Virus record (IMG/VR): IMGVR_UViG_3300030090_002429
Span: 1-21,136 of that record
DNA from: a virus
DNA: 21,136 bases
Direction: 5' to 3' (one strand)
Both the position numbers and the translations under genes were made by a program. Under the pieces are notes generated by a model. The model saw only the letters and a list, made by a program, of their open reading frames with translations, had not been told where the DNA came from and did not search any database. This document shows, piece after piece, positions 4,719 through 17,067 of the stretch (positions are counted from its first letter, which is position 1; each line of letters begins with the position of its first letter).

Positions 4719-5019
4719 CGTTACGACGAAAAACAGTGTGCCGTTACAGACGTTACAAGCGTTACAGTCCTAATTAAACTTGTACCGGTGAAAAATCCAA
4801 TGGATTCAAAGGCTTGTGACATATATAACAATAATTACAGAAAATAGATATATATATAGAGAGGTATGTCTATCTAAGTGCCTATCAGTGTTTATGTATA
4901 TGTGACTATCGTTCGCAAAACATCGTAACAAACGTAACGGCTGTAATTTTTTAATTAAAACAACAAGTTGCGCGTTACGCTGGCTATTTTGTGGCGTTAC
5001 GCACTTTTAAAACGTAACG
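4719..5019. repeat. Iteron region A, homologous to region B
   Basis: This gene-free stretch holds nine copies of CGTTAC in either orientation. CGTTAC begins at 4719, 4742, 4751, 4760, 4973 and 4995; CGTAAC begins at 4924, 4933 and 5013. The three at 4742-4766 and the two at 4924-4938 are spaced exactly 9 bp apart. Between the two groups is a core of about 156 bp, much of it A and T with runs such as tatatatata. The 20 bases TCCTAATTAAACTTGTACCG (4768-4787) are identical in region B (16757-16776). The whole gap 4620-5104 contains no gene. The layout suggests a replication origin or a control region bound by a phage protein. Confidence 0.75.
4742..4768 (+). repeat. Three tandem 9-bp iterons, region A left arm
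   Basis: CGTTACAGA, CGTTACAAG and CGTTACAGT follow one another without gaps. The matching left arm of region B is 16731-16757. The regular spacing, close to one helix turn, is typical of cooperative protein binding sites. Confidence 0.85.
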
Positions 5020-5063
5020 ATTGGCCGTTGACGTAAGCGCAAGCTGTGCATATTTCAGCACAC

Positions 5064-5089
5064 AAAAAAACCCGCCGAGGTGGCGGGTT
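5064..5089 (-). terminator. Intrinsic terminator upstream of region A
   Basis: Minus strand: AACCCGCC (5089-5082), loop ACCTC, GGCGGGTT (5076-5069), then T to 5064. It ends the unit that finishes with the gene at 5105-5311 and separates it from region A. Confidence 0.88.
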
Positions 5090-5104
5090 GGTGTTGCAGC
5101 GCGG

Positions 5105-5311
5105 TTAGCTGAAAATAAAATCTGCCCCATCCTGATATGCTTTCACGCATTTCTCTATGTCCGCAGATTTGCCTATGCTGAAATACTTGCCGTTAAAGCA
5201 GAACTCAACCTTTTTTACATCCCACAAGATGGCTTTGTTTTTAGCCTCTCGCACTGCATCCACTAATGATGTTCCTGGCATAAATTTAACTTTTGCTATC
5301 ATGTTACTCAT
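5105..5311 (-). CDS. Small hypothetical protein
   Basis: Sixty-eight residues from ATG 5311, which overlaps the stop of the upstream gene in an ATGA junction; GGAG lies about 10 bases upstream. Starts at 5320 are less likely. The sequence alternates short strands and helices (MIAKVKFMPGTSLVDAVREA, then KVEFCFNGKYFSIG) and ends FIFS, with no membrane segment and no clear motif. It is the last gene before the terminator at 5064-5089. It is somewhat AT-richer than the head genes around it, as often seen for accessory genes. Function unknown. Confidence 0.7.
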   Translation of the reverse strand: MSNMIAKVKFMPGTSLVDAVREAKNKAILWDVKKVEFCFNGKYFSIGKSADIEKCVKAYQDGADFIFS

Positions 5312-5739
5312 CCCAAACACTCCATCAAATACAGTTTATCCCACACATACCGCCCATTAGCGGTGCGCTCCAAGTCACGCATCAACGCCTCACGCGCCTC
5401 TTGCAGCTCGCTAATGATCTGCGCTTGCCCTACCTCTGCATCAGCCTCGCGTGTTTCCATGCTGCCGTCATCATAGCGCAGCACTAGCCTGGCAATGATG
5501 CGCCACCGCAACGGGGCGTGCGTGGCGTACGTGGCAATGTCCTGCTGCTTACGCTGCGGAATATGCGCCGGAAACGACCATTCACCCTCAAATTCCCCGC
5601 CGATATGCCGACCAGTGGCCTTAATACCTACACACCAGCGCCGTGCGTTCGTCTGATAGTGTTGGTACTGCTTCTGACTCACCAGCCGCTTACGGCGCTT
5701 AATCTCGCCAGCCTGGGCGCGTTTTTGGGCGCGGTTCAT
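5308..5739 (-). CDS. Hypothetical phage accessory protein
   Basis: A 143-residue protein beginning MNRAQKRAQAGEIKRRKRLV, a strongly basic N-terminus common in phage accessory proteins and suggestive of nucleic-acid contact. The middle has Trp- and Arg-rich strands (GEWSFPAHIP, RWRIIARLVLRYDD). Residues 100-125 form an acidic, helical segment. ATGA overlaps join it to both neighbours, so it is part of a coupled operon. I do not recognise a named family and cannot assign a role. Confidence 0.75.
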   Translation of the reverse strand: MNRAQKRAQAGEIKRRKRLVSQKQYQHYQTNARRWCVGIKATGRHIGGEFEGEWSFPAHIPQRKQQDIATYATHAPLRWRIIARLVLRYDDGSMETREADAEVGQAQIISELQEAREALMRDLERTANGRYVWDKLYLMECLG

Positions 5740-5999
5740 TGCTGTTCCTCCGGCGCATAAACAATTGCCGCCTGGATCGCGAGCGCCATATCACCAAACG
5801 GCATGTAAGCCTCACTAGCGGCGTCTACCATCTCCTCAGTTGGCTCGACGGGCACGCATTTGTACCCATCCGGGCAGCGGGCTTGCCATGCGGCCCAAGC
5901 CTCATCCGCTGCCGTATGGTAATAACTTCCGTCCACCATTACGCACAAACCCATGTTTCGGCTCTGCGCCCACGCCTCAAAACGCTCTCTTTCAGTCAT
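5736..5999 (-). CDS. Conserved phage accessory protein (FEAW / GYKCVPVEPT type)
   Basis: Eighty-seven residues. The order FEAWAQSRNMG, then DEAWAAWQAR, then GYKCVPVEPTEEMVDAASEA and PFGDMALAIQAAI, is a mosaic motif set very common in small early or accessory phage proteins of Proteobacteria. These proteins have no assigned biochemical role. The start at ATG 5999 overlaps the previous gene by eight bases and has AAGGAG very close to it. The gene is coupled to its neighbour at 5739 by an ATGA overlap. Confidence 0.8.
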   Translation of the reverse strand: MTERERFEAWAQSRNMGLCVMVDGSYYHTAADEAWAAWQARCPDGYKCVPVEPTEEMVDAASEAYMPFGDMALAIQAAIVYAPEEQQ

Positions 6000-6183
6000 A
6001 ACTCCACTCCTTCAATTCACGCTCAAGCGCCATTTCTTCTAGACGTCTGTCAATCAATGGCCGCTTGGCGTAGTGTTTTTCGGTCGCATACACGTCGTTG
6101 CGGATGCGGCTCTGGAATTTGGTTTCGCTGCCGCCGCCCTGAATGTGGCGGCCTGTGAAGCTGGGGATGGTGTAGGTGGTCAT
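5992..6183 (-). CDS. Small charged hypothetical protein
   Basis: Sixty-three residues from ATG 6183, joined by an ATGA overlap to the upstream gene. The open frame extends to 6228, but this start is favoured by the overlap. The sequence begins MTTYTIPSFTGRHIQGGGSE and ends in a charged helix (RLEEMALERELKEWSYD). No Cys pairs, membrane segments or known motif are present. The upstream SD is weak, so translation probably depends on coupling. Function unknown. Confidence 0.65.
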   Translation of the reverse strand: MTTYTIPSFTGRHIQGGGSETKFQSRIRNDVYATEKHYAKRPLIDRRLEEMALERELKEWSYD

Positions 6184-6413
6184 AATATACCTACGGTAGA
6201 AGATGCTGTTTTTGAGGATATTCGCCAAATATGCCCGCAGTTTTTACATTCAGCCTTGTAACCGCCGCGAGGCCCCTTGATAACTCTTACGTGCTCCCAT
6301 GTTCCCTTATAACTGTACACCAATGGATCACCTGAGTAGGTGGTTCTTGTTCCATACTTTTTCCACGCTGCTTCGTAACAAACAACGCATCTAGCAGATC
6401 TCTTCCTGGTCAT
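6180..6413 (-). CDS. Small zinc-ribbon protein
   Basis: Seventy-seven residues from ATG 6413. This start is chosen because GGAGGAGGAAGTG precedes it; the longer open frame to 6551 overlaps another gene. Two Cys pairs, C9-x-x-C12 and C56-x-x-C59 (followed by GHIW), form a four-Cys zinc ribbon pattern. The N-terminus is basic. A hairpin (6429-6445) sits just before the SD and may limit translation. Such proteins may bind DNA or modulate host proteins, but no target can be named. Confidence 0.72.
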   Translation of the reverse strand: MTRKRSARCVVCYEAAWKKYGTRTTYSGDPLVYSYKGTWEHVRVIKGPRGGYKAECKNCGHIWRISSKTASSTVGIL

Positions 6414-6428
6414 CACTTCCTCCTCCAT

Positions 6429-6445
6429 GCCCGCGCTAGGCGGGC
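6429..6445. other. Hairpin directly upstream of a Shine-Dalgarno
   Basis: GCCCGC (6429-6434) and GCGGGC (6440-6445) form a perfect 6-bp GC stem with a 5-base loop. In the minus-strand transcript it ends two or three bases before the GGAGGAGG that serves the gene at 6413. There is no T-tract, so a translational or processing role is more likely than termination. Confidence 0.5.
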
Positions 6446-6453
6446 GGGGTTGT

Positions 6454-6903
6454 TTAATCGAATCGGTAGTGGCCGTGAACCACCTCGTGAGTATCTGGAA
6501 TAACGCGATCACCATGGCTGTCCGGATTGATTGACTCAATATCCAATCCATCCGCTTTTTTCGTAAAATCCTCCAGTATCGCGATCTCTCGCCTCATGTG
6601 ATTAATCTGCTTTCGCTTAAGCATCATTAAATGGTCAAAGGCGTCAGGAAGGGTCTTGAATGCTACTCGGCTACCAACCTTGGCGACCTTGTGTATCTTT
6701 TCGCCGCTTCGCTTAGCAGCCTGTAAGAGGCTTTCATCTTCGCGCTGATAGCTCCTAATATAGCCAGCCCTCGTTTTCTCAATGCACCAATGCCAGCATT
6801 CAGATTCGTGGATGCTAACTAACTCCTTGGTGATAACATTGATTCCTTGCTCGTCTATCGCGAGGCGCATCTTGTAAAAAACATCATGATCTCTCACTAA
6901 CAT
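6454..6903 (-). CDS. Hypothetical accessory protein
   Basis: A 149-residue protein. ATG 6903 is very close to its SD (AGGAGG), and the GTG two codons later has better spacing, so the true start may be either. The sequence is mostly charged and helical, with a Trp/His/Cys patch (SECWHWCIEK, about residues 34-43) and a long predicted helix (DAFDHLMMLKRKQINHMRRE). It has its own leader element upstream (6926-6990). It is AT-richer than the surrounding head genes and interrupts the portal-to-capsid order, so it looks like an inserted accessory gene. No family recognised. Confidence 0.72.
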   Translation of the reverse strand: MLVRDHDVFYKMRLAIDEQGINVITKELVSIHESECWHWCIEKTRAGYIRSYQREDESLLQAAKRSGEKIHKVAKVGSRVAFKTLPDAFDHLMMLKRKQINHMRREIAILEDFTKKADGLDIESINPDSHGDRVIPDTHEVVHGHYRFD

Positions 6904-6925
6904 CCCTCCTCTCTAGTTATACATC

Positions 6926-6990
6926 AACAATAAACCCCAGCGGCTGCCGGGGCTAATGGTATTTTTTTATCGTGTAGCGGTGGATGATAG
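6926..6990 (-). promoter_or_regulatory. Recurring leader element, copy E2
   Basis: Minus strand: ATTAGC (6957-6952), a 19-bp spacer able to form a CCCC/GGGG hairpin, TATTGT (6932-6927). The 3' flank on the plus strand, GGTATTTTTTTATCG, matches E1 closely. It fills the gap between the Mu gpF-like gene and the gene at 6903. Confidence 0.5.
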
Positions 6991-6993
6991 GGG

Positions 6994-7899
6994 TTAGCTA
7001 TCAGGCTCAAACGCGGCGCGCTGTTTTTGCATGCGTTCTTTTAGCGGGCCAAGGATGGGCTGGCCTGATTCGTCTAGGAGTACGCTTTGCTGCGAGCAGC
7101 GGCAATTTATCGATTCACCCCCCTGGCTATAAAACTCCGCAACCTCCTGCGCACTGAATGTGCGCCCATGTTTGGAAGCGTGGCTTTGGCGTGTGCTCGG
7201 CAGTAATGCGCTGTACCACAACATAGCCGTGCGAATGCCTAAGCGCTCTTGTGCGTCTTGATTCTCGTCTCGTGCAGCTCTGCGCAGCGCTGAAGTCACC
7301 TCAGTCCTAGCGATACGCTCTGCTCTGCTCTCGCTAACCTTAAACCGCGCCCGTATATCCTTCGCCACCGTACGCGGATTCAGCCCATCCTCAACGCCCT
7401 GGCTAAGCACACGCCCCAGCTCCGTAGCCGTATCGCCGTTGAATGAGTCCATCTGCTCGAACACCCGCGAACGAATCAACGCCACCCGCCGCTGCCACGG
7501 CTCCGACGCCAAGACCTGCGTTATCTCCCGCGTATAGTCATCCGTCAGCGCCGCTAACTGTGCCACGGCGGTTCCGGTGCCTGCTTCATACGCTAGCACC
7601 GTTTGCGCGGCCATATAATCCGGTGGCACCTCGATGCCCAGGCGACGGCGAATCTCCTCAACAATAAGTCGCAGCTCCTCCACGCTAATTAGGTATTCGT
7701 AGCGCGTTTCGTTGACCACATAGCCCGGCACTTGAGCGTTAATCGTGATCTCACGCTTTGGTATCTCCTCAAAACGCTCTAGCACCCATCGGCGAACGTC
7801 GCGCAAGCCGCGTTTTAAGCGGCTCACGGTCTGTTGTTGCAGGCGGGCGTGCCCCACTGGGTTCTCTGTGTTTCGGGGCAGGGTGGGGTATTTAGGCAT
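6994..7899 (-). CDS. Phage Mu gpF-like minor head protein
   Basis: A 301-residue protein. The C-terminal domain (about residues 140-275) carries the Mu F-type head morphogenesis pattern: a helical part ending RAERIARTEVTSALRRAA (191-208), then a metal-site-like run with His240 and His244 in TRQSHASKHGRTF, and Cys266 and Cys268 in INCRC. The N-terminal half is helical and variable. Proteins of this family are minor capsid components that act with the portal in head assembly. The gene follows the portal with five tiny genes between. It starts at ATG 7899 with an ATGCCTAA overlap to the zinc-ribbon gene upstream. Length is normal for the family. Confidence 0.87.
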   Translation of the reverse strand: MPKYPTLPRNTENPVGHARLQQQTVSRLKRGLRDVRRWVLERFEEIPKREITINAQVPGYVVNETRYEYLISVEELRLIVEEIRRRLGIEVPPDYMAAQTVLAYEAGTGTAVAQLAALTDDYTREITQVLASEPWQRRVALIRSRVFEQMDSFNGDTATELGRVLSQGVEDGLNPRTVAKDIRARFKVSESRAERIARTEVTSALRRAARDENQDAQERLGIRTAMLWYSALLPSTRQSHASKHGRTFSAQEVAEFYSQGGESINCRCSQQSVLLDESGQPILGPLKERMQKQRAAFEPDS

Positions 7900-8044
7900 T
7901 GTGACCGCCAGTCATAAATGTTCTATGCCCACACCCTGGGCAGCGCTTTGATGAGCCACCTTTCTTTATGTCTTTTGCTGTCGGCTCACTCATCTTCGCC
8001 TTAGTTACAGGCTTTAAGCATCTCATGCATATGTAATGATTCAT
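7892..8044 (-). CDS. Tiny zinc-ribbon protein between portal and gpF-like genes
   Basis: Fifty residues from ATG 8044 (sequence begins MNHYICMRCLKPVTKAK). The four Cys, C6-x-x-C9 and C35-x-x-C38 with GH after the last pair, give a clean zinc-ribbon pattern. The start has GAGGGG eight bases upstream and overlaps the preceding 27-residue frame as ATGA; the end overlaps the gpF-like gene as ATGCCTAA. Junctions on both sides support it as real in spite of its size. The basic middle suggests nucleic-acid contact. Function unknown. Confidence 0.65.
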   Translation of the reverse strand: MNHYICMRCLKPVTKAKMSEPTAKDIKKGGSSKRCPGCGHRTFMTGGHNA

Positions 8045-8124
8045 CCCGCCATCCCCTCAATTAACAACATTCCGCCCATCCCACCTACGCCCACGGTCAG
8101 CATCACCACACAAATAACGGTCAT
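8041..8124 (-). CDS. Possible 27-residue single-pass membrane peptide
   Basis: ATG 8124 to the stop at 8041. The peptide begins MTVICVVMLTVGVGGMGGML and is almost wholly hydrophobic with Gly repeats, fitting one membrane span. Its stop overlaps the next start as ATGA. It shares bases 8057-8124 with the larger frame 8057-8248 in a different register, and its SD is weak, so one of the two may not be expressed. Confidence 0.4.
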   Translation of the reverse strand: MTVICVVMLTVGVGGMGGMLLIEGMAG

Positions 8125-8248
8125 GCCAAACCAATCCGGCAGCGCGGCACCCTAACGGGCTATGATTGCTGGGCAATCGAGCGGCCAGATACCACTTGTC
8201 TAGCGTTGCGGTTGCGGCTACCCAGCGCCATGTTTGCAAGATGGTCAT
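8057..8248 (-). CDS. Small hypothetical protein, Trp/Cys/Arg-rich
   Basis: Sixty-three residues from ATG 8248, which overlaps the preceding stop as ATGA. The sequence begins MTILQTWRWVAATATLDKWY and continues with SNHSPLGCRAAGLVWHDRYL. It has no recognised motif. The composition (many Trp, Arg, Cys) is unusual but the start junction is typical of this operon. Confidence is reduced because it overlaps the 27-residue membrane frame at its 3' end. Confidence 0.5.
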   Translation of the reverse strand: MTILQTWRWVAATATLDKWYLAARLPSNHSPLGCRAAGLVWHDRYLCGDADRGRRWDGRNVVN

Positions 8249-8358
8249 ACTACCCCCTTAGGCCGCATATCCAGCCACTTCATCTGCAAATACCACTGAA
8301 ACGCAGCCACCTCTTGGTATTTGGCGGTTTCGTACCAGTGTTGGTGTGTTTCGGTCAT
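8245..8358 (-). CDS. Tiny 37-residue hypothetical protein
   Basis: ATG 8358 overlaps the stop of the DUF551-like gene as ATGA, and its own stop overlaps the next ATG (8248) in the same way. The sequence, MTETHQHWYETAKYQEVAAF followed by QWYLQMKWLDMRPKGVV, is a single amphipathic, aromatic-rich helix without a membrane span. Precise coupling at both ends supports translation. Function unknown. Confidence 0.6.
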   Translation of the reverse strand: MTETHQHWYETAKYQEVAAFQWYLQMKWLDMRPKGVV

Positions 8359-8621
8359 TGTGGTGGCTCCGGAAGTGGCATCCAGTGGGTAGGCTTAAAA
8401 CAATCCCCGATTGGCTCATGGTGCGGATCGTATTCATGGTCGCCAATTTCTGTCCAGTGCTTCCATTGGTCATCTTCAAATATGCAGTCTGTAAGCCTTT
8501 GATCATCACCATCTGTGAAATATTTTTCAAAGTATGCGTTATACCTGGGTACGGCTACTACCCATAAATCTACCATCGTTCCATCAAGTGGCGCTGTATC
8601 AATCGGCTGCCATTCGCTCAT
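8355..8621 (-). CDS. DUF551-like protein
   Basis: Eighty-eight residues from ATG 8621. The open frame extends to 8651, but GGAGAATATG precedes this start. The ends match DUF551: an N-terminal MSEWQPIDTAPLDGT and a C-terminal THWMPLPEPP. DUF551 proteins are frequent in phages and prophages and have no proven biochemical function. The middle here is longer and more acidic than in short members. The 5' end overlaps the portal gene by 23 bases, and the 3' end is coupled by ATGA to the 37-residue gene. Confidence 0.82.
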   Translation of the reverse strand: MSEWQPIDTAPLDGTMVDLWVVAVPRYNAYFEKYFTDGDDQRLTDCIFEDDQWKHWTEIGDHEYDPHHEPIGDCFKPTHWMPLPEPPQ

Positions 8622-10002
8622 CATATTCTCCATTATCATCACCCAAATCATCCGCAGGCACCTCAGGCTCTGTCAGCGCCTCCCACCCAATAATAGCCCG
8701 CAATTCGTCACCTGTCGCGATAATCTCCCCGGTGCCTGCCATGTTTTTAACGGCCTCGGTAGCGGTCTTTAGCATCGCCAGTTTATCAGCAAGCGAGGCG
8801 TCGTTCAGCTCAGACCACATCACTTCGTATTCATCTCCCGGCACGGGTGGAATGATGCGGTATTCCATCAGTCGGTCGATAAAGCGGCGAATATCCGTTT
8901 GCAGGTCGCCCCCCCGGCGCGCCTGACAGCGGTTATTAAAGTCATCCTGGTCTTCGGTGCTTGCCCGCTCGCCCTGCTGATTGCCGATAAGCACCTTCGT
9001 CGGTATTTCCAACGACGCAGCGATGCATTGTACCTGTATCTCGAAATGCTCTTTCGGCTGGGGGACGTTAGCCACCAGCGGGTTAATTTTGCCCCCGGTC
9101 GTGAACGCTGCTGCGTCAATGACCGAGTTTAGGTCGGCCATCATCTCGTTCAGGCGTTCGTTCAGCTCATCCATGCCGACGCCATACGACCGGGCAAGCT
9201 CTGGCAGGCTCTGTGAGTCGCTATACTCAACGCTTAACTGCCGTGAAGCATTCTTCAGAAAACCTTCGCCGCTGCCCCCGGTAATTTTCACTACCGAAAC
9301 GAAGTCGTTATACGCCGCTTCCAGCTCGCTAACGCCTTCCCGGTAATCGCCTACAATCACGACACGGCTATGGTGAATCGTCACGCTACGGGCTGGCGGT
9401 GGTGTGTCTGCGGTCTGAACGTTGCCCTCGTTGTAGTTCCACGTTGTAGGCTGGCCGTAGCGCGGGCTGTTGGGGTTTTCATCCCATGTTCCAGGCGTTA
9501 ATTGCCCTTCCCATGCCGGGATAATCTCAATCAGGTCACCACCGGGCTGCAACTCTTCATCCCATCGCGCATTGTCAGCCACTCGCAGGATTAAACCAGA
9601 GTAAGCCCCCACCATCCGGCGGCGGTCAGCATCCTGGAATTTCTGCCAGACGTTCAGGCGCTTGAACAGCTTTCGAACGTCGCGTTCCCACGGTTTTTCG
9701 GTGGTCTTTTCGTCCGTCGTGTCACCCTGGATGATCCATGGGTTATCCTGCCATGTTTTGCGGATCAGGCGATTGACGCCAGCTTTGGCTAGGCTGTTGC
9801 GCTGGTAGAGATTTAAGAAGTCGTAGAAGTTCAGAGTATTGGGAAATCCATAATTCTCCCAGGACTTCGGTCTTTTCGTGTCGCTGCTGGCGTTATAGCC
9901 CGCGCCATAAGCTAGCGCTTGCCGCATCGACGCCAACCGACGCTCACTCATGTACTGATTAACGGCCATCGTTAGCCGTGTTTCTTTGTCTTGCTGTGCC
10001 AT
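8599..10002 (-). CDS. Portal protein, DUF1073 (HI1409-like)
   Basis: A 467-residue protein of the DUF1073 / HI1409 phage portal type. Marks are GVNRLIRKTWQDNPW near residues 75-90, the strand RSVTIHHSRVVIVGDY, and the conserved IPTKVLIGNQQGERASTEDQ followed by RCQARR. It forms the dodecameric ring at the head vertex through which terminase packs DNA. Position, between terminase and gpF-like genes, agrees. The start is odd: ATG 10002 directly abuts the T-tract of a terminator-like hairpin and no SD is present. The later Met codons near residues 12 and 18 also lack an SD, so 10002 is kept. The acidic C-terminal tail is variable in the family. Confidence 0.9.
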   Translation of the reverse strand: MAQQDKETRLTMAVNQYMSERRLASMRQALAYGAGYNASSDTKRPKSWENYGFPNTLNFYDFLNLYQRNSLAKAGVNRLIRKTWQDNPWIIQGDTTDEKTTEKPWERDVRKLFKRLNVWQKFQDADRRRMVGAYSGLILRVADNARWDEELQPGGDLIEIIPAWEGQLTPGTWDENPNSPRYGQPTTWNYNEGNVQTADTPPPARSVTIHHSRVVIVGDYREGVSELEAAYNDFVSVVKITGGSGEGFLKNASRQLSVEYSDSQSLPELARSYGVGMDELNERLNEMMADLNSVIDAAAFTTGGKINPLVANVPQPKEHFEIQVQCIAASLEIPTKVLIGNQQGERASTEDQDDFNNRCQARRGGDLQTDIRRFIDRLMEYRIIPPVPGDEYEVMWSELNDASLADKLAMLKTATEAVKNMAGTGEIIATGDELRAIIGWEALTEPEVPADDLGDDNGEYDERMAAD

Positions 10003-10036
10003 AAAAAAGCCCCGAAGAGGTGATGTCTTGGGGCTT
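10003..10036 (-). terminator. Terminator-like hairpin abutting the portal start codon
   Basis: Minus strand: AAGCCCC (10036-10030), long loop, GGGGCTT (10013-10007), T-tract to 10003, and the next base is the A of the portal ATG. It could stop transcripts from upstream genes. A transcript starting at the promoter 10037-10045 would begin in the 5' arm and could not form it. Confidence 0.7.
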
Positions 10037-10045
10037 ATTGTAGCA
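10037..10045 (-). promoter_or_regulatory. Extended -10 promoter TGCTACAAT before portal
   Basis: Minus-strand TGCTACAAT is a close match to TGnTATAAT. The predicted start point, about seven bases downstream, falls at 10030 or so, the inner end of the hairpin 5' arm. No convincing -35 is visible. Confidence 0.55.
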
Positions 10046-10057
10046 CCTAGGCTTGAC

Positions 10058-10273
10058 TTAGTCGTCTACGCCTTGAACTCGGTCAATGCTCCACACCTCT
10101 TCTCTAAAATCCCCCCTGGGGTCGCATTGGCCTTCCGTGCCAAAAAAGTCTTCCTCGTGAAGATCATCAAGCATCATGTCTAACGGGCCAGCAATTGATT
10201 CGGCTTCGTCTTCGTCGCCTGCAATTTTAGAAAGCCTTTCTAACACTAGCTTTACGCGCTTTGAGTAGCTCAT
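10058..10273 (-). CDS. Small acidic conserved phage protein
   Basis: Seventy-one residues from ATG 10273, with GAGGAGAAAGAA upstream as SD. A basic N-terminal helix (MSYSKRVKLVLERLSKIAG) is followed by a very acidic segment (DEDEAESIAG, DDLHEEDFFG) and the stretch FFGTEGQCDPRGDFR. I recognise this stretch from small phage proteins of unknown function in Proteobacteria. The gene lies between two accessory units, just upstream of the portal, and is followed by the terminator-like hairpin. A partial E-type leader precedes it. Function unknown. Confidence 0.75.
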   Translation of the reverse strand: MSYSKRVKLVLERLSKIAGDEDEAESIAGPLDMMLDDLHEEDFFGTEGQCDPRGDFREEVWSIDRVQGVDD

Positions 10274-10283
10274 TTCTTTCTCC

Positions 10284-10335
10284 TCAATGCCGCCCTTTTG
10301 AGCGGCTTGGTATTTATCGCGCTGTGGTGTTATGG
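10284..10335 (-). promoter_or_regulatory. Partial leader element, copy E5
   Basis: Resembles the outer part of the E family (plus strand TTGGTATTTATCG near 10307-10319, then a GTGG-rich flank) with a small hairpin CCGCCC/GAGCGG, but lacks the ACAATA box. It fills the 56-base gap before the gene at 10273. Weak evidence. Confidence 0.3.
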
Positions 10336-11367
10336 GCGGCGGACGAAGCGGAAGTTTTCACCAGCGGGGGCAAAATCCCAAGCACGTACATCGCCATCGT
10401 CATCAATTAAATCAAAATCATCATCATCAGGGTCTCTCGGATCACGAACAATGTACTCCTCACCATGCGTAAAGCATCCTCCATGCGAAATAAATTGAAT
10501 AACATCCCCCGCCCGCCAATTCGCCGGGTCAGTCATATCGTCAGCTGGCCGCCCCCACTCAATATTTTCTGGCCACTTAACACAATCATCGTCTGCTGGC
10601 TGTGGTTGTTTGCGGTAGCCTTGCTGGTACAGTCGCTTGGAAAAGCTATGGAAATTATCAGACGCCTGCACATGGCTAACCATCTCCTCAACCGCGCGGT
10701 CTTCTTCGGTGGCTAATGCAGCAGAAGCGCGCTTCTGACATTCAAGGCGCGATGACTGACAGGCATTGCGTGCTATCCATTCCAAAGCTTCCATCATGCG
10801 CTCTACGCAAGTCGCTTGCGGGTGAAAACCATCATCGCGCAAATCTTCGGCGCACTGTTTGGGGCTTGGAATTGGCAAATATCCTTCCTCTGCGACTTCC
10901 TCACGATCCCCCACCTCCGGCACCCATTGTTTGCTAGTCATCTGCGGCTCATCACCAACCGCATTCGTCGCGCTCAGGATTTGGGATAGGGTGAGTTGGC
11001 GCTCTCCCCATCCTGAACCGTTATATCCATGGTACAGATTATCGATTTTCTCGCGCCATCCAAAATAAGGATAAAACTGTCCATCCGACGGATACTCCCC
11101 CTTCCCCGCCCCCGCCGCCATAAACGCTTCTGCCACGGCGTGATAGTCATCTTCGCTAAGCCCTTCGGTAGCGATGTAATCGCCTGGCTGTAATGTTACC
11201 GCCGAGCCATCCTGCTCCGCACCACTCTGCTTCTCACGCAGCACCCACCCGCCGCCATGCTGAATAACCTCGTGCGTATGCGTCAGCCCCTTCCACGTGC
11301 GTGCGCACTTGGCGTTGCCTTCGGTGGCGAACGGGTCGCCGTTGGTGCGTGTGATTAGGTTTGTCAT
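10330..11367 (-). CDS. Hypothetical accessory protein, multidomain
   Basis: A 345-residue protein from ATG 11367 with AGGAG nine bases upstream. It appears modular. Residues 1-145 contain ALTLQPGDYI-like strands (VTLQPGDYIATEGLSEDDYH) and EYPSDGQFYPYFGWRE. Residues 165-245 are Cys-containing and helical (KQCAEDLRDDGF through RASAALATEEDRA). The last 75 residues look like a small beta barrel (WRAGDVIQFISHGG, GEEYIVRDPRD, DLIDDDGDVRAWDF) as found in many phage accessory proteins. None has an assigned function. It is inserted between large terminase and portal with its own E-type leader, so it is an accessory gene in the structural region. Confidence 0.75.
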   Translation of the reverse strand: MTNLITRTNGDPFATEGNAKCARTWKGLTHTHEVIQHGGGWVLREKQSGAEQDGSAVTLQPGDYIATEGLSEDDYHAVAEAFMAAGAGKGEYPSDGQFYPYFGWREKIDNLYHGYNGSGWGERQLTLSQILSATNAVGDEPQMTSKQWVPEVGDREEVAEEGYLPIPSPKQCAEDLRDDGFHPQATCVERMMEALEWIARNACQSSRLECQKRASAALATEEDRAVEEMVSHVQASDNFHSFSKRLYQQGYRKQPQPADDDCVKWPENIEWGRPADDMTDPANWRAGDVIQFISHGGCFTHGEEYIVRDPRDPDDDDFDLIDDDGDVRAWDFAPAGENFRFVRRP

Positions 11368-11395
11368 GGTTGTTTGCTCCTGTTGTTTACTGACA

Positions 11396-11467
11396 CCCCA
11401 AACAATAAACCACCGATGGCAGGGTGGCTAATTGTAATTTCTAATGGTGTGGCGTGGTGGTGATAGG
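11396..11467 (-). promoter_or_regulatory. Recurring leader element, copy E3
   Basis: Minus strand: ATTAGC (11432-11427), 19-bp spacer with a CCACC/GGTGG hairpin, TATTGT (11407-11402), then TGGGG. It occupies the whole gap between the large terminase stop and the gene starting at 11367. Confidence 0.5.
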
Positions 11468-11473
11468 TTTTAC

Positions 11474-12871
11474 CTAACGACGTTTCTTGAGCAATACAGC
11501 AGGGCCGCTCACGTTGCCGCCTAACATATCTGACAGCGCATCCATCATTGGGTCAACCGTGTCATCGTGCTTGGCATTGGGGAAGGAGCTGGTTTCTGCC
11601 AAAAGCTCAGACAGCCACGGGGCATCTTGCGGCAAGTACACATTTCCGGACTGCACCAACGGGGCCGCATCCATCGCCCTGGTAATTTTGTCGCGGTCTC
11701 GCTGTATATCCACCACTGGCACGCCTTCGCGTTTTAGCGTTTGTATTAGCCCGGTGCCTGAAACCTTGTCCTCAACCTTCATTGACCGTAAAAAGCCAGC
11801 ATCACGAACTGCATTGTGCTTATTCCAGAATGCACGGGCATGCGTTAACAGCTCAGGGGCTTCCCATTTGCCTCGGATCATATCAATTAGATACGCTTGG
11901 CCGGATTTTGACTTACCCCAGCACTGAAAAACGCTGTAGTCGTTATGCTCTTTTGTCTTTTGAGCCGTGTCTGCGTATATGCCGCGCCACTCCATTTGCG
12001 GTAGGCGTTGATAATACTGCCACCAAGCATCTTTGAATATGCCGCCGCCAATCGGTGCCGGGCGCTGCATATATTGCCCTGCGAAGCGATAGGCGTCTGA
12101 GCTTTCCATGCGGCGCAAGTCCTCTAACGGGAACTGCTCAGGCCAGAATGACGTATCCGCATCATTGATAGCGGGAATGTTCAAGTGCTCCCAATGCTCG
12201 CCATTACCGCCGTTAAGCAAGTACCCGGATAAATCCTCTTCATGCAGCCGCTGCATGATAACGATGATAGGTGTGTCCGGGCTGTTTTTCCGGCTTTCCA
12301 TTGTTGTGCTAAACCAGTCCAGCACGTTTTGGCGCATCGTGTCACTATTGCCTTCCCCGGCTTTGTGCGGATCGTCAATTATGATTGCCCCGCCAAAGTG
12401 GTCGCGCATTTTACCCGCTCCAAAGCCAGTTATGCTCCCTTCCGCACCAGTGGCGTAAACAACCCCGCCCTCCATAGTTCTAAATTCGTCTTTCGCATTA
12501 GAGTCGTTTTGAAATGCAGGCCTGCCAAATATATTGGCATGCATTTCGTGCTGCATGATTGAACGAACATTATAGGTGTTATTTGTTGCCAGCCTTTTTG
12601 AATAGCTAGCATGAATAAATTCGCTATCAGGAAAATTCCCCATACACCAAGCTATAAAATTAATGACGGCTAACTCTGTCTTTCCAGACCTTGGCGGTAT
12701 ATTGATTATTAACCGCTTGGTCTTTCCAATAACAACCTTCTCCAATGCTGAGCATATAGCATCTTGGTGCCAATTATGCTTTAAATTTGCCCCCTTCCTG
12801 GCTTTAAACATAACCTTAGTGTATGCCAAAAGGTCAGACCTGCATTCTGCAATATCATCAGCGCTCAACAT
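11474..12871 (-). CDS. terL: Terminase large subunit
   Basis: A 465-residue packaging ATPase/nuclease, complete. Walker A is PPRSGKTE (59-66) and Walker B IIIDDPH (163-169). The nuclease domain shows acidic residues at D301 (IYADTAQKT), E367/D368 (MKVEDKVSG) and D436/D437/D440 (HDDTVD). It drives DNA into the prohead and cuts the concatemer. ATG 12871 is preferred over a GTG at 12883 because AGGTGG is well placed before it. Its first bases overlap the end of the GIY-YIG gene, so translation may be coupled to it. Length and residues are normal for the family; no intron or intein is seen. Confidence 0.95.
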   Translation of the reverse strand: MLSADDIAECRSDLLAYTKVMFKARKGANLKHNWHQDAICSALEKVVIGKTKRLIINIPPRSGKTELAVINFIAWCMGNFPDSEFIHASYSKRLATNNTYNVRSIMQHEMHANIFGRPAFQNDSNAKDEFRTMEGGVVYATGAEGSITGFGAGKMRDHFGGAIIIDDPHKAGEGNSDTMRQNVLDWFSTTMESRKNSPDTPIIVIMQRLHEEDLSGYLLNGGNGEHWEHLNIPAINDADTSFWPEQFPLEDLRRMESSDAYRFAGQYMQRPAPIGGGIFKDAWWQYYQRLPQMEWRGIYADTAQKTKEHNDYSVFQCWGKSKSGQAYLIDMIRGKWEAPELLTHARAFWNKHNAVRDAGFLRSMKVEDKVSGTGLIQTLKREGVPVVDIQRDRDKITRAMDAAPLVQSGNVYLPQDAPWLSELLAETSSFPNAKHDDTVDPMMDALSDMLGGNVSGPAVLLKKRR

Positions 12872-13578
12872 GACAGCTTCCACCTGTATCCGTATGCTGT
12901 GTAATCTTCTCTTTTTGTTGCCCGGATTATTTTTGAATGGTTAGCTTTCGGGTATTTGCCTTGCGACCTAACCCACTGTACAGCGTCTGCTATTGCTTCA
13001 AACTGCTCACCTGTGTCTACGCAGGTTACCTTCCTAGCCCTTGCCTTTCTAAGAGACGCGACGTGCTCCGGCGTTTTTTTAACTCCTCGCTGCCTTGCAC
13101 CAGTAGCCTCTCTTACCTCCGGCCTTGCCATTGCTTCTTTTATTTTTTCAATTCGACTAGCACGAACCTCAGGGTTTGACCATGCGTTCCTCAGTCCCTC
13201 TTTGTTTTTTTCAGACATGGGCAACCCTTTCAGTCTTTGAGACATCTTCATCCTTGTCGATTCAACGAATACGCCAGCGTCTCCACCGTCTGTCAGATTG
13301 TATCCAGATGGCGACATAGTATTAAATGACTTTATCCAATAGCGCTCTCTCGAGTTCATTTCCTCGAAGCTTGAACATTGCTCAACTAGCTCAACCGAAA
13401 AGCAGTTAGCACCATGCTTGCGGATGGCAGAATAAAGGGCCGAGCAATTGCCGCTATTTTTGCGAGAATGCCATAAGTGATTTGCAAACCTGTTTTGGTA
13501 GCCGCGAGTTGTCACTCCGACATATTTCTTGCCGTTCTTGCTGTTCGTTATTACATAGACTTCGTATGTTTTTTTCAT
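12865..13578 (-). CDS. Free-standing GIY-YIG homing endonuclease
   Basis: A 237-residue protein from ATG 13578. The GIY-YIG core has YVI (8-10) and YVG (19-21), Arg30, and a Glu at 78 in SRERYWI, the usual catalytic set. Residues 105-180 carry repeated NUMOD3-like DNA-binding segments (MSQRLKGLPMSEKNKEGLRN, NPEVRASRIEKIKEA). Residues 184-232 resemble the NUMOD1/IENR helix-turn-helix. Such enzymes cut a neighbouring gene in phages that lack the insert and spread by repair. It lies between small and large terminase genes and is AT-richer than they are, a sign of insertion. The start is directly behind a terminator-like hairpin that covers its SD. Confidence 0.9.
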   Translation of the reverse strand: MKKTYEVYVITNSKNGKKYVGVTTRGYQNRFANHLWHSRKNSGNCSALYSAIRKHGANCFSVELVEQCSSFEEMNSRERYWIKSFNTMSPSGYNLTDGGDAGVFVESTRMKMSQRLKGLPMSEKNKEGLRNAWSNPEVRASRIEKIKEAMARPEVREATGARQRGVKKTPEHVASLRKARARKVTCVDTGEQFEAIADAVQWVRSQGKYPKANHSKIIRATKREDYTAYGYRWKLSC

Positions 13579-13604
13579 AAAAAAAGCCACCTGTGCAGTG
13601 GCTT
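13579..13604 (-). terminator. Terminator-like hairpin masking the endonuclease ribosome site
   Basis: Minus strand: AAGCCAC (13604-13598), loop TGCACAG, GTGGCTT (13590-13584), T-tract to 13579, then ATG. The only SD, AGGTGG (13592-13587), is eight bases from the ATG and lies in the loop and 3' arm, so folding would hide it. Read-through mRNA from the small terminase would carry the full hairpin. Confidence 0.75.
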
Positions 13605-13605
13605 A

Positions 13606-13634
13606 ATTGTACCCTGTAATAGTTCCCTTTGCTA
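13606..13634 (-). promoter_or_regulatory. Candidate promoter for the homing endonuclease
   Basis: Minus strand: TAGCAA (13634-13629), 17 bp, TACAAT (13611-13606). The -10 matches five of six positions, the -35 only three. The expected start point is near 13599, the end of the hairpin 5' arm, so this transcript would lack the hairpin and leave the SD open. Confidence 0.45.
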
Positions 13635-13635
13635 G

Positions 13636-14016
13636 TCATTCCCGGTACTTTGCTTCCAGCGCCTTAAGCACGGCGTCTTGGGTGGATTGTATTGGTTTGC
13701 CAGCAGTAGTGTGGTCGCTGTCAATCTTATCGTGATACCCATGCTTTCCAAGCAGCAGCTTAACAATCTGCGCATTAAACGTGTTGGTAAGTCCGCCGTT
13801 CATGGCTTTAAACTCTTGCATTTCGTTAACAGCGTCTAATATGTCACTAAACTCAGTATTTTCAGACGCCCATCGATGCAGGGTGCCGCGTGCCACACCT
13901 ACCACAACCGCCATGCCTGCGACCGATGGCACTGCGTGCCCGTGCATCTCATAATCCTGCACGTAAGCGAGGCAGGCCGCTTTTAACTCCTCTGTCATCT
14001 TGGTTGGCCTAGCCAT
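13636..14016 (-). CDS. terS: Terminase small subunit (P22 gp3-like)
   Basis: A 126-residue protein beginning MARPTKMTEELKAACLAYV. It has the P22 gp3-type pattern: GHAVPSVAGMAVVVGVARGT (a helix-turn-helix-like segment, about residues 26-45), then LHRWASENTEFSDILDAV, and GGLTNTFNAQIVKLLLGKHG with YHDK. It binds the packaging site and guides the large subunit. ATG 14016 is chosen because the open frame before it begins only with a TTG that overlaps the previous stop. It overlaps no gene; the preceding gene ends three bases upstream. In most phages the large subunit follows at once; here the homing endonuclease intervenes. Confidence 0.88.
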   Translation of the reverse strand: MARPTKMTEELKAACLAYVQDYEMHGHAVPSVAGMAVVVGVARGTLHRWASENTEFSDILDAVNEMQEFKAMNGGLTNTFNAQIVKLLLGKHGYHDKIDSDHTTAGKPIQSTQDAVLKALEAKYRE

Positions 14017-14018
14017 AA

Positions 14019-14246
14019 TCAAAACCCATCGTTTTCGTCAATCTTGAGTAAGCCGCGATCTTCTTCGTAAACGCCCCAATCTTCGTCAGCATTGCGCGCC
14101 CAAATAGGCGTCTTGTTTAGCAGCTCGGCAAACGACTCACACTCAGCAGCGGGCTGACTAACAATCTTATCAAATGCGGCAATTTGCTCAGCATTTAGGT
14201 GATAGGTGATATGGCCGCTCTCATCGACCGTTTGCGGAATTGGCAT
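14019..14246 (-). CDS. Small acidic protein with DUF1778-like middle
   Basis: Seventy-five residues from ATG 14246, chosen because AGAGGAG lies seven bases upstream. The stretch YHLNAEQIAAFDKIVSQPAA followed by FAELLNKTPIW resembles the C-terminal half of DUF1778 antitoxins (Leu-Ser-x-x-x-x-x-Phe ... Pro-Pro ... Leu-x-x-Leu-Leu ... Pro-x-x-Trp). The usual N-terminal ribbon-helix-helix is not evident and no acetyltransferase toxin gene is adjacent, so an antitoxin role is doubtful. The C-terminal 25 residues are very acidic. It is placed just upstream of the small terminase gene. Confidence 0.65.
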   Translation of the reverse strand: MPIPQTVDESGHITYHLNAEQIAAFDKIVSQPAAECESFAELLNKTPIWARNADEDWGVYEEDRGLLKIDENDGF

Positions 14247-14275
14247 AGTCATCTCCTCTGGTTTCTATTGCGTCC

Positions 14276-14284
14276 ATACTAGCA
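14276..14284 (-). promoter_or_regulatory. Extended -10 promoter TGCTAGTAT
   Basis: Minus-strand TGCTAGTAT resembles TGnTATAAT and directly follows a terminator T-tract, as at 421 and 1423. It would drive the gene at 14246 and the packaging genes. No -35 is clear. Confidence 0.45.
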
Positions 14285-14285
14285 C

Positions 14286-14319
14286 AAAAAACCCCTCAGT
14301 ACGCAGTACGCAAGAGGGG
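14286..14319 (-). terminator. Intrinsic terminator upstream of the packaging genes
   Basis: Minus strand: CCCCTC (14319-14314), 16-base loop, GAGGGG (14297-14292), then six T (14291-14286). The loop holds a tandem 7-mer, GCGTACT twice. It ends the early gene block but also lies just downstream of the promoter at 14333-14361. Confidence 0.75.
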
Positions 14320-14332
14320 CCGTGCTGCATAT

Positions 14333-14361
14333 AAATTACCGCCCCGGCATCTTGCCGTCAA
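14333..14361 (-). promoter_or_regulatory. Sigma70-type promoter followed at once by a terminator
   Basis: Minus strand: TTGACG (14361-14356), 17 bp, TAATTT (14338-14333), a good host-type promoter. The transcript would meet the terminator at 14319-14286 almost immediately, giving an RNA of only about 40 nt unless termination is bypassed. A 6-bp inverted repeat CTGTTT/AAACAG (14363-14388) lies just upstream. Confidence 0.5.
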
Positions 14362-14397
14362 CCTGTTTTGACACCAGCCCCCAAACAGGAGCGTCGA

Positions 14398-14619
14398 TCA
14401 TTGCGCCAAGCAATCATGGCAAACGTATTCGTCATCAATGATCTCCATTTCTGAGGTCTCGCTCCACCAGCCGCAAGTCTCGCAAATCTGTAGCTCTTCC
14501 TCTGCTAAAACTTCGCAGGCTTCTGCGTAATCGACGCCGAGTTCATCAACGGCATCATCCAGGCTGTTGCAGGTTCCGGCCAGATACTCGAGTAATGCTG
14601 CTCGTTTTTCGCTATTCAT
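14398..14619 (-). CDS. Small acidic zinc-binding protein
   Basis: Seventy-three residues from ATG 14619 with GGAGG six bases upstream and an ATGA overlap to the gene before. The N-terminal half is helical (MNSEKRAALLEYLAGTCNSL, DDAVDELGVDYAEACEVLAE) and could be a small helix-turn-helix. The C-terminal half has C46-x-x-C49 and C67-x-x-C70, a four-Cys zinc site. The overall charge is strongly negative, so DNA binding is unlikely, and a protein partner is more plausible. Last gene before the promoter/terminator stretch at 14286-14388. Confidence 0.75.
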   Translation of the reverse strand: MNSEKRAALLEYLAGTCNSLDDAVDELGVDYAEACEVLAEEELQICETCGWWSETSEMEIIDDEYVCHDCLAQ

Positions 14620-14822
14620 CTATTGCCTCCCAAATTAGCCGATACCGGCCCCTCGTTAATATTACTCATCAGCGTATACCCGTCCCGCTGCAACGCGCAA
14701 TAGTTATTCATCGTCATGGCGTAGTACGCCACTTTTGCCCGTGCGAGCGTTTCAAACGTTAGATCATCCGTCATCGTGTCGCGGGTTTTGCCGTATATCA
14801 GGGTGAAGGTTCTGGTGGTCAT
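14616..14822 (-). CDS. Small hypothetical early protein
   Basis: Sixty-eight residues beginning MTTRTFTLIYGKTRDTMTDD. It appears as a short beta strand, an acidic turn, a helix (LARAKVAYYAMTMNNYCALQ) and a C-terminal tail. AGGAG lies eight bases upstream and ATGA overlaps join it to both neighbours. No known family is recognised. It belongs to the coupled run of small genes downstream of region B. Confidence 0.72.
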   Translation of the reverse strand: MTTRTFTLIYGKTRDTMTDDLTFETLARAKVAYYAMTMNNYCALQRDGYTLMSNINEGPVSANLGGNR

Positions 14823-15493
14823 TCGGTTAGCTCCTGGGCGCGTTGGCGAAGGTCATCGGCAAGCTCCATCATTTCGTTGTAATAATCAGCCCCATCACCG
14901 GGATATTCGCGGTGCCCGGTCGATGGGTCTGTGCTGCCGTGCTCGGCATCATAGTCGGTGGCTTTTTGCTCAATAAAATCCGCAGCCAATCGCAAGCCCT
15001 CCGCCTGCTTAATCAGGTCGCGGCGGGTGAGGGCGTTTGTAGGCTCTTGCTTGCTCAAAGTTTCAATATTACCCATCACAGCGTCTGCGAAGCTTTGATA
15101 ATCCGAAGCATTGTAATTTGAGGGAAAGGCCAACACTGCAGCGCAACGCTTCGCGTCAACGATGACGTAACTTAACTGCTCCACATGCGCAACCAACGCC
15201 TCCTCAGCGGCACGGTGAATTTCGAGATCATCTCTTAGTGCTGCTATGTGTGCCTCTAGCTTGGCTATTTGCTCAGTCATCTGTGCATTAGCAGCACGCT
15301 CGCTCTCTAGCGCCTGCGGATTGCACTCATCATGTAACCGCTTGGCTTGTTCCAGATTTGAACCTGCCGCTTTTTTGGCGGCATCCATACCGCGCTGGGC
15401 GGCTTTAGCCTGGCGTGCCAGCAAATACTCTAGCTCGGCAATGCGCTTCTGTGCGTCGCTCAACTCGCCCTCTATTCGCTCCATCGGTGTCAT
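14819..15493 (-). CDS. Coiled-coil accessory protein (Ead/Ea22-like style), paralogue of next gene
   Basis: A 224-residue protein. Residues 1-110 form a long coiled coil rich in Ala, Glu, Lys and Gln (MERIEGELSDAQKRIAELEY; AANAQMTEQIAKLEAHIAAL). Residues 150-180 contain PTNALTRRDLIKQAEGLRLA. The C-terminal part has STDPSTGHREYPGDGADYYN, then a helix. The block EEALVAHVEQL ... LTRRDxxKQAE is shared with the gene at 15490-15948. Such modular coiled-coil proteins are common in the early regions of phages of Proteobacteria (Ead/Ea22-like), with no known biochemical role. Start at ATG 15493 overlaps the previous stop as ATGA. Confidence 0.78.
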   Translation of the reverse strand: MTPMERIEGELSDAQKRIAELEYLLARQAKAAQRGMDAAKKAAGSNLEQAKRLHDECNPQALESERAANAQMTEQIAKLEAHIAALRDDLEIHRAAEEALVAHVEQLSYVIVDAKRCAAVLAFPSNYNASDYQSFADAVMGNIETLSKQEPTNALTRRDLIKQAEGLRLAADFIEQKATDYDAEHGSTDPSTGHREYPGDGADYYNEMMELADDLRQRAQELTE

Positions 15494-15948
15494 TTTGATA
15501 AGCCCTCGGCTTGTTTGCGTTTATCGTTAGCGCGAACCCGTGTTGCTTGAGCAGCGTCGCCATAGCCGCACTGCTTGAGCGCAACCTCTAACTCATCCAA
15601 CGTCTCCGCCTGCTTGAGCGCATCGCGGCGGGTGAGGCAAGTGGTGGGAGATTGACTAATGACTTCCTTTAGTTCGGAGACTTTTTTTATATCGGCCCCG
15701 TCGTCGTCAATAACAAGGCATCCCAGTAACCGTTCAACATAAAGCACCAGCGCCGCCTCGCGCTCAATGGCGGCGTTTAGCTGCTGCAAGGCGTCACGCT
15801 CTCCCCGCTGCCGCAACGCAACCTGTAGCTCATCGCTTAACTGATACGCGTCGACATCCCGCTCTAACCTGATCACCATTAGCGCCAGCTCATGTGTGCC
15901 CATGGCGGTTAACTCGGCAAGTCGCTCTGCGTGCTCAAAATTGTTCAT
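15490..15948 (-). CDS. Coiled-coil accessory protein, paralogue of 14819-15493
   Basis: A 152-residue protein. It shares with its neighbour the block AALVLYVERLLGCL, an intervening spacer, and TTCLTRRDALKQAETLDELE. This supports duplication or exchange of a common module. The N-terminus is helical (HAERLAELTAMGTHELALMV) and the C-terminus basic (RVRANDKRKQAEGLSK). SD GGAGGTGGAAGT is good and the start overlaps the previous stop as ATGA. Role unknown; probably an early accessory factor. Confidence 0.76.
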   Translation of the reverse strand: MNNFEHAERLAELTAMGTHELALMVIRLERDVDAYQLSDELQVALRQRGERDALQQLNAAIEREAALVLYVERLLGCLVIDDDGADIKKVSELKEVISQSPTTCLTRRDALKQAETLDELEVALKQCGYGDAAQATRVRANDKRKQAEGLSK

Positions 15949-16232
15949 ACTTCCACCTCCAGTCGCTGTAGCTGATCAACAATCTCGGTTAGTTTTGCGA
16001 CGGCATCGCACCATTCGGCATTCAGGTAGACGGTCTCGTAAAGCATCGGCTCCGGCCACGTGGAAGGTGGCGCGCTGTAATCCATGCGGCAGTCATGCAC
16101 GCGAATGGTCAATCCGCTCGTATGCGCCGCGTAATCAACAAACACATGGTAAGCCTCGCATTTTATCGCTGCGGCCTGTATGCGGGCGCATAGGGCACGC
16201 GCGGTGTCTGTTTGGATATTGGTTGTGGTCAT
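15945..16232 (-). CDS. Hypothetical small protein
   Basis: Ninety-five residues beginning MTTTNIQTDTARALCARIQA. A helix is followed by strands (AYHVFVDYAAHTSGLTIRVH) and a C-terminal helix (AEWCDAVAKLTEIVDQLQRL). Three Cys are dispersed and do not form ribbon pairs. AAGGAG is well placed upstream of ATG 16232. ATGA overlaps join it to the genes before and after. No family recognised. Confidence 0.74.
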   Translation of the reverse strand: MTTTNIQTDTARALCARIQAAAIKCEAYHVFVDYAAHTSGLTIRVHDCRMDYSAPPSTWPEPMLYETVYLNAEWCDAVAKLTEIVDQLQRLEVEV

Positions 16233-16591
16233 AGGTTTAACTCCTTACTGTCAAGTAGGCCATTAACGTACATAGCCTTAGCTGTTTTATGATCTACCAG
16301 CATCCCGCCTACCGTATTGGCGTTTTCGCTTACCGGGGACTCCGGCTCATACCAGCCTGTTTCTTTTTCTTGGTTTGAAAGCTCTCTTGTATCCAAATAG
16401 CTGGCTTCGCTAGCGTGGCATTCTGTGCAGTAATACGGGCCACACTGAACCATACCAACACCAACATCTACATAATCTGCTTCGCAGCCGTCATAGCCAC
16501 AGTAAGGGCATATTGCCTTCGGCGTGCTGTACGCACTGCGAGCGTATTCGTCACCACCTACAAACTTATGCCGTCCGATTCCTGTGCTCAT
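16229..16591 (-). CDS. Zinc-finger protein, first gene downstream of region B
   Basis: A 120-residue protein from ATG 16591 with GGAGGAGGTCAGGGC upstream. Cys28/Cys31 (ICPYCG), Cys36, Cys50 and Cys55/Cys58 (YYCTEC) suggest one or two zinc sites. The CPYCG start resembles Lar-type restriction-alleviation and related phage zinc proteins, but the match is too short to name it so. The C-terminal half is soluble and acidic. As the first gene behind region B and an E-type leader, it opens the early accessory operon. Confidence 0.75.
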   Translation of the reverse strand: MSTGIGRHKFVGGDEYARSAYSTPKAICPYCGYDGCEADYVDVGVGMVQCGPYYCTECHASEASYLDTRELSNQEKETGWYEPESPVSENANTVGGMLVDHKTAKAMYVNGLLDSKELNL

Positions 16592-16612
16592 GCCCTGACC
16601 TCCTCCGTTGTG

Positions 16613-16690
16613 ATACCCAAAGTATGAACCCGCCGTGGCGTGGTGGCTAATGAGTAATTTTTATGTGGTGGTTGGTGTTGGTAGGTTTTT
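16613..16690 (-). promoter_or_regulatory. Recurring leader element, copy E4
   Basis: Minus strand: ATTAGC (16651-16646), 19-bp spacer rich in CCACC/GGCGG, CATACT (16626-16621), then TTGGG. It lies between region B and the gene at 16591. Spacing agrees with E2 and E3 although the -10-like box differs. Confidence 0.45.
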
Positions 16691-16730
16691 GCTATTACTG
16701 AACCGCGCCCGGCTAGCCATGCCCCGCTAT

Positions 16731-17014
16731 CGTTACGCCCGTTACAGACGTTACGCTCCTAATTAAACTTGTACCGCTAAAAAATCCAGTAAAATCAAAG
16801 CTATGTGACAATAATAACAAAAATAACTAAAAAAGATTTAATTTAATAGAGAGGGGTAGATATTGTCATGCTGACCTATGAGTCTCTATCTCTATAGGTC
16901 TATCTATTGCCGCGTACCGTAACAAACGTAACGGTTGTATAAGTTATTGATATTTATCACAAAAACTGGATTTTTGACCGGTACGCACCGTTACAGCGGT
17001 ACAGAAACGTAACG
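16731..17014. repeat. Iteron region B, homologous to region A
   Basis: Seven copies of the hexamer: CGTTAC begins at 16731, 16740, 16749 and 16989; CGTAAC begins at 16918, 16927 and 17008. The left triplet and the right pair have the same 9-bp spacing as in region A, and the core between them (about 161 bp) is similarly AT-rich. It directly follows the replication genes and their terminator, a good place for an origin. The rest of the gap 16592-17067 contains no gene beyond the leader element E4 and the terminator. Confidence 0.75.
16771..16984. repeat. Near-perfect 20-bp inverted repeat framing region B core
   Basis: Plus-strand 16965-16984 reads ACTGGATTTTTGACCGGTAC, and the reverse complement of 16771-16790 reads ACTGGATTTTTTAGCGGTAC, 18 of 20 identical. 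The left copy has a counterpart in region A (4782-4801); the right copy does not. Inside lies a further 7-bp inverted repeat GACCTAT/ATAGGTC (16873-16879, 16894-16900). Confidence 0.75.
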
Positions 17015-17045: not shown

Positions 17046-17067
17046 TAATCTTGCATTTCCCACCACT

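Follow-up and report, generated by a model that had tools for sequence, protein, structure and literature searches.

A probable primase-linked replication origin and a diverged origin-type cassette before the head genes of a PrimPol phage

The DNA analysed here (the window; 21,136 nucleotides, positions 1 to 21,136 of IMG/VR virus record IMGVR_UViG_3300030090_002429) carries two related repeat regions about 12 kb apart, region A (4719-5019) and region B (16731-17014). The window belongs to contig C13, of 46,187 bases; the contig ends overlap by 99 bases, and the phage genome is thus a circle of 46,088 bp. On the transcribed (minus) strand, a hairpin-plus-T terminator precedes each region and a promoter-like sequence follows it. 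In the case of region A, these are a rho-independent-type terminator (5064-5089, minus strand), in a flank conserved in relatives, and the σ70-like promoter of the head operon, TTGCAC-N18-TATACT (4637-4666, minus strand), which is also conserved and lies outside the cassette. The first gene of the head operon (3464-4609, minus strand) matches phrog_760, and genes for head decoration and major virion proteins come after it. Region B lies directly 3' of a gene for a 905-aa PrimPol primase-helicase (17068-19785, minus strand); a terminator (17024-17046, minus strand) separates the two, the gap between the primase stop codon and the nearest repeat unit of B is 54 bp, and the promoter-like sequence of the next operon is found beyond B (16621-16651, minus strand). 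An earlier note on this DNA had placed each region after a terminator in a gene-free gap, with B behind the replication genes and A before the head operon.

Re-reading of the sequence confirmed the coordinates and the common plan of the two regions. Region A contains eight exact copies of CGTTAC or GTAACG (at 4719, 4742, 4751, 4760, 4934, 4973, 4995, and 5014) and region B contains six (at 16731, 16740, 16749, 16928, 16989, and 17009), each set within about 300 bp; one TGTTAC beside an inverted unit in each region (4925-4930 in A, 16919-16924 in B) brings the sum to the sixteen hexamers reported earlier. Three head-to-tail 9-bp CGTTACnnn iterons (4742-4765 and 16731-16754, plus strand) are followed by a 20-bp block, TCCTAATTAAACTTGTACCG, with the same letters in both regions (4768-4787 and 16757-16776, plus strand), an AT-rich core that is a candidate unwinding element (4788-4923 and 16777-16917), two inverted 9-bp units, TGTTAC and CGTTAC (4925-4939 and 16919-16933, minus strand), and an outer inverted pair, CGTTAC/GTAACG (4995-5000 and 5014-5019 in A, 16989-17014 in B). 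The units at 4719 (4719-4724, a fourth CGTTAC beside the head-to-tail array) and 4973 (which extends the outer part of A to 4973-5019) are present in A only, without a counterpart in B. The regions align with 71% identity over 213 columns, and are thus homologous; A is 64% AT and B 63%, versus 47% for the genome.

The density of the repeats is beyond chance, as the note had held. In 120 first-order Markov simulations of a 46-kb genome the densest CGTTAC cluster had four copies, versus the eight observed in a 320-bp span, and the best of all hexamers in 40 simulated genomes reached at most seven. A search of the whole 46,088-bp phage genome revealed no third CGTTAC cluster. An exact 17-mer block in three other viral records (L086, L087, and L092) was dismissed as probably a chance occurrence; there is no CGTTAC cluster in those records.

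The 905-aa protein has an N-terminal Prim-Pol domain, its sole Pfam match, and a C-terminal part common to phage DNA primases, in line with its PHROG assignment. Pfam or PHROG scans of the larger phage proteins, which represent part of the open reading frames (ORFs), found no Rep initiator of the RepA/RepE/TrfA class. Primase relatives in IMG/VR with identities as low as about 37% likewise have, directly 3' of the gene, short repeats clustered around an AT-rich core that contains CTCTATATATATCTAT-like stretches. Within the 430 bp that follow the 3' end of the gene, 37 of 41 related loci (several of them near-duplicates, so that independent cases are fewer than 41) have a 7-mer in four or more copies, as against none of 28 control stretches taken 5' of the same genes and 8% of random 450-bp stretches of these loci. 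Relatives below about 37% identity are mostly without a repeat cluster at the 3' position. The repeats come in lineage-specific dialects (CGTTAC, CGTCAC, CGTGAC, GTTACA, GTCAAC, GGTAAC, GCAAAC, GCATAC, TATACA, and others), but the plan of iterons, AT-rich core, and iterons was constant across dialects in the regions inspected. Exact matches to WATCAANNNNTTR, the consensus for binding of the bacterial protein IHF, were present in 13 of the 41 primase-linked regions (0.02 expected per region); the 46-kb genome has two, one of them in B (16940-16952, minus strand). The cultured Pararheinheimera phage KLER1-1 (OM654378; L325, 3171-3662) has a GCTTACA iteron region with an AT-rich core after its primase gene, at the end of the record. 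About 20 phages that combine a primase of the window's type (type 1) with other head modules have one cluster each, behind the primase, though many of these records are fragments in which a second site could be missed.

Triples of CGTTACN3 were also looked for more widely. Most of the 115 viral loci examined are inside reading frames, and about half of ten large genes picked beside such loci are of primase or helicase type. At one locus (L329; G077:C128, ca. 1500-1640) the triples are found within or adjacent to a reading frame of VTPVTP repeats, with an apparent helicase gene as neighbour; in further phages, too, coding sequence and iterons may overlap.

Comparison of phages that share the head genes of the window revealed three different PrimPol types, each with its own dialect of B. 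Type 1 goes with CGTTAC, type 2 (PriCT_2 and DUF3987 domains; G025, G087, G088, and G089) with GCTATCC, and type 3 (AAA_25 domain; L179, with the same C-terminal sequence in L339) with GGTGATTTT. In every swap the junction is the same: similarity to the window restarts at the promoter of the next operon, which is retained. Because each primase type has its own B dialect and the junction at the promoter is common, we conclude from these sequence comparisons that primase, predicted origin, and iteron dialect are one unit that is inherited and exchanged together. A precedent was shown experimentally for the Vibrio cholerae satellite PLE (phage-inducible chromosomal island-like element), in which the DNA-binding domain of the initiator RepA varies in step with the iterons and the two are swapped together as one module (PMC8263062). 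PLE differs from the present case in that its RepA_N initiator is without primase or helicase and its origin is single. Between the GCAAAC and GCATAC dialects only two primase positions separate the groups, one of them 56 residues from the C-terminus, which is at most suggestive of coevolution of primase residues and dialect.

The part of the primase that could read the iterons was modelled. The C-terminus of the type-2 primase forms a winged helix at its very end in the model (mean predicted local distance difference test, pLDDT, 83); MarR-type regulators and archaeal Orc1-DNA complexes come closest to it in fold, with E of about 0.01-0.02 and none below 0.001. The type-1 C-terminus was modelled with good confidence (pLDDT 90). 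We take the 905-aa protein as the presumed iteron reader.

The arrangement is known from another kind of element. Origins of phage-inducible chromosomal islands (PICIs), including Staphylococcus aureus pathogenicity islands (SaPIs), lie immediately 3' of the initiator gene and consist of an AT-rich region between two iteron sets, with alleles that have different iterons, a plan which the authors describe as unique to PICIs (PMC6092414). Two iteron sets flank an AT-rich region in A, in B, and in the inspected primase-linked regions of relatives, and B, like the clusters in the 37 of 41 relatives, comes immediately after the 3' end of the primase gene; A is not so placed. The earlier note knew of no described element of this form, a view that the PICI/SaPI origins overturn. 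The present case is unlike them in that PICIs are satellites while here a whole phage, with its own terminase, portal, head, and lysis genes, uses a PrimPol primase, and in that a second copy is found 12 kb away before the head operon. Since position, plan, and dialect exchange match the published PICI/SaPI plan, B is most likely the cognate, PICI-like replication origin of the primase. The C-terminal part of the primase would probably bind the CGTTAC iterons that flank the AT-rich core, host IHF would perhaps bend the DNA of B, and the core would then melt, the helicase load, and priming start. The twin replication origins proposed earlier are thus well supported for B, by its place 3' of the primase, its plan, and the inheritance of its dialect with the primase, while for A an origin is only plausible.

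As judged by alignment, A is a diverged copy of the same origin-type cassette, 12 kb off, between a terminator and the head-operon promoter. In relatives, the site before the head operon holds a CGTTAC (dialect 1) cassette in six loci, including the window phage itself (L090) and one phage twice (G025/L271 and L089), and a dialect-2 cassette in four (L269, L270, L275, and L277). In L274, another gene with its own terminator is present in A's place, upstream of position 5533. The flanks of A (terminator and promoter) are conserved, and the cassettes between them are unalignable across dialects 1 and 2. Dialect-2 A and dialect-2 B are 68-70% identical (G087/G088 and G089), as compared with 71% for A and B of dialect 1; because A resembles B within each dialect, the twin arrangement exists in two dialects. 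Around the terminase genes, 3.4 kb of phage G088 matches the window phage at 97.7% identity, and the head protease at 93%; despite this, G088 has dialect 2 both in its primase/B unit and in A. The five dialect-1 A cassettes that could be aligned are 74-87% identical overall, with the 9-bp iteron spacing kept and with conservation of the iterons and of a long, nearly invariant AT-rich stretch. Nine of 48 iteron columns vary, versus 138 of 349 others (p = 0.006, a rough value, since columns of one alignment are not fully independent).

We consider it fairly probable that B is the cognate origin of the PrimPol primase-helicase and that A is a diverged copy, most likely a second locus bound by the initiator. 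A could be a second origin or a site needed in cis like crr of phage P4, both of which we rank first, or a control locus like incA of P1. Several observations weigh against this joint interpretation. The GC skew that the earlier note proposed to use has no turn at A or B, but it tracks the coding strand and is uninformative. Unlike B, A has no exact match to the IHF consensus, and a fold search with the C-terminal model of the type-1 primase returned no significant match. L274 has the same head genes and head promoter without A. Two phages combine an A of dialect 1 (CGTTAC) with a B of another dialect, GCTATCC (dialect 2) in G025 and GGTGATTTT (dialect 3) in L179. An assembly chimera was ruled out for G025, since two other contigs (L287 and L089) are exact matches to it and share an overlap. 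The dialects of A and B agree in three of the five phages with both sites (the window phage, G087/G088, and G089), too few for a test. By the alignments, A seems to be kept even in phages whose primase does not match, and because its iterons are constrained there, its reader in those phages should be something besides the resident primase.

The mismatches bear on what A may do. Rather doubtful, though worth keeping in mind, is a combined reading in which A is a dedicated second origin or cis partner site of the whole phage, matched to the primase by cassette exchange, and is, where mismatched, read by the initiator of another, possibly co-infecting, replicon. It is also unlikely, and marginally more so, that B is an origin while A is read by another phage protein, for late-gene control or some other use. 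The dialect of A is independent of the primase in G025 and L179, yet its iterons are constrained. A candidate is a 129-aa protein with weak helix-turn-helix (HTH) matches (C13:8744-9133; L093), which is 100% identical between the window phage and G025, both with A of dialect 1, 35% identical in G088, with A of dialect 2, and 34% in G001. Its allele tracks A and not the primase in three phages, and it is a possible reader of A on this count. The neighbourhood of the gene is otherwise well conserved among these phages. Against such a role, A is homologous to B in each dialect, the comparison is of three phages only, and the head promoter is outside A and persists in L274. Furthermore, G001 carries an identical B despite an HTH protein only 34% similar; as B is present there without that allele, the protein cannot be the reader of B.

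A might instead be a functionless remnant, an earlier origin that recombination carried to its present place as a passive hitch-hiker; the dialect mismatch in two of five phages, the absence of A from L274, and the strong mosaicism between conserved flanks speak for this. We regard this as distinctly improbable, since the iterons and the long AT-rich stretch are conserved though the whole cassette has diverged to 74-87% identity, and a dialect-2 cassette occupies the same site in phages with a dialect-2 origin. The other proposal of the earlier note, control regions for a phage transcription factor, is weaker than that of twin origins, though conceivable for A. A reading in which a host or phage factor uses both regions as operators or promoters, with no part in replication, is in keeping with the terminator and promoter-like sequence flanking each. 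But the dialect of B is swapped along with the primase while the neighbouring promoter stays in all swaps, the place 3' of the primase is conserved even in distant primase relatives, the triple array is absent from the other genomes of the host genus that were searched, and the head promoter does without A in L274, so we hold this explanation to be very improbable. Sites for a host transcription factor were rejected separately: the triple array occurs in the host assembly in phage contigs only, and in 57 related genomes in a single contig (G077), in or beside VTP-repeat reading frames. A mobile element of the MITE type (miniature inverted-repeat transposable element) was also rejected, since a genome has no more than two copies and their two locations are constant.

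Other systems resemble the favoured arrangement of a primase-linked origin and a second initiator-binding locus in part. Phage P4 has a fused primase-helicase, alpha, with a DNA-binding C-terminus and two separated cis loci, ori and crr, with the same repeats. A and B likewise are two separated loci with the same iterons, CGTTAC in the window phage and again in dialect 2, and P4 is a further precedent for the form that the earlier note held to be undescribed. Here, the primase is an archaeo-eukaryotic PrimPol, the repeats are different, and A has a full origin-like layout; the mismatched dialects in G025 and L179 argue against an equivalent of the strict need of P4 for both loci in cis. Phage P1 has iterons at oriR and a second iteron array elsewhere, incA, which controls copy number and is without an origin-like AT core. 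The pairing of an origin with a second array is thus shared with P1, and the AT core of A is not. Two replicons have been cited for P4 (PMC6092414), and its alpha protein is a TOPRIM-type primase (PMC4234260). The archaeal plasmid pRN1 encodes a PrimPol replication protein with a C-terminal winged helix and has its origin just 3' of the gene (PMC4234260); the PrimPol, the winged helix (in the type-2 model), and the position of the presumed origin are alike. The pRN1 origin is a large stem-loop without iterons; an iteron array around an AT-rich core lies 3' of the gene here, perhaps with a stem-loop as well. Since primase type and kind of element differ, we do not claim membership in the PICI, P4, or P1 families. 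In the literature searched, the coverage of which was partial, we found no phage described as having twin primase-linked origins.

Pfam and PHROG scans of the phage found genes for terminase, portal, head, holin, endolysin, SSB, exonuclease VIII, dUTPase, methyltransferase, and helicases; neither an integrase nor a repressor was seen among the proteins scanned, which represent part of the ORFs. A second contig, C15, carries a permuted copy of this phage that differs from C13 in 13 places. These near-identical permuted copies of the 46-kb phage are separate contigs in the host assembly, of which C13 is closed by its 99-base overlap, and the pair suggests free phage DNA or two co-resident variants. 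Between the genes for the small and large terminase subunits sits an ORF (12865-13590) resembling GIY-YIG-type endonucleases by sequence, and this block is 99-100% identical to that of G088.

The origin plan of PICI/SaPI satellites is extended here to a broad group of autonomous PrimPol phages, and it therefore becomes possible to find the origins of many uncultured phages by sequence. The iteron dialects, more than ten of them and paired with related primases, form a natural series from which recognition rules may be derived. Relatives exchange these repeat stretches like cassettes, and the question is raised of why a phage retains a second, displaced origin-type cassette before its head genes, in some cases with a dialect that the resident primase would not be expected to read; the A/B pair could show why the virus keeps a displaced second start site.

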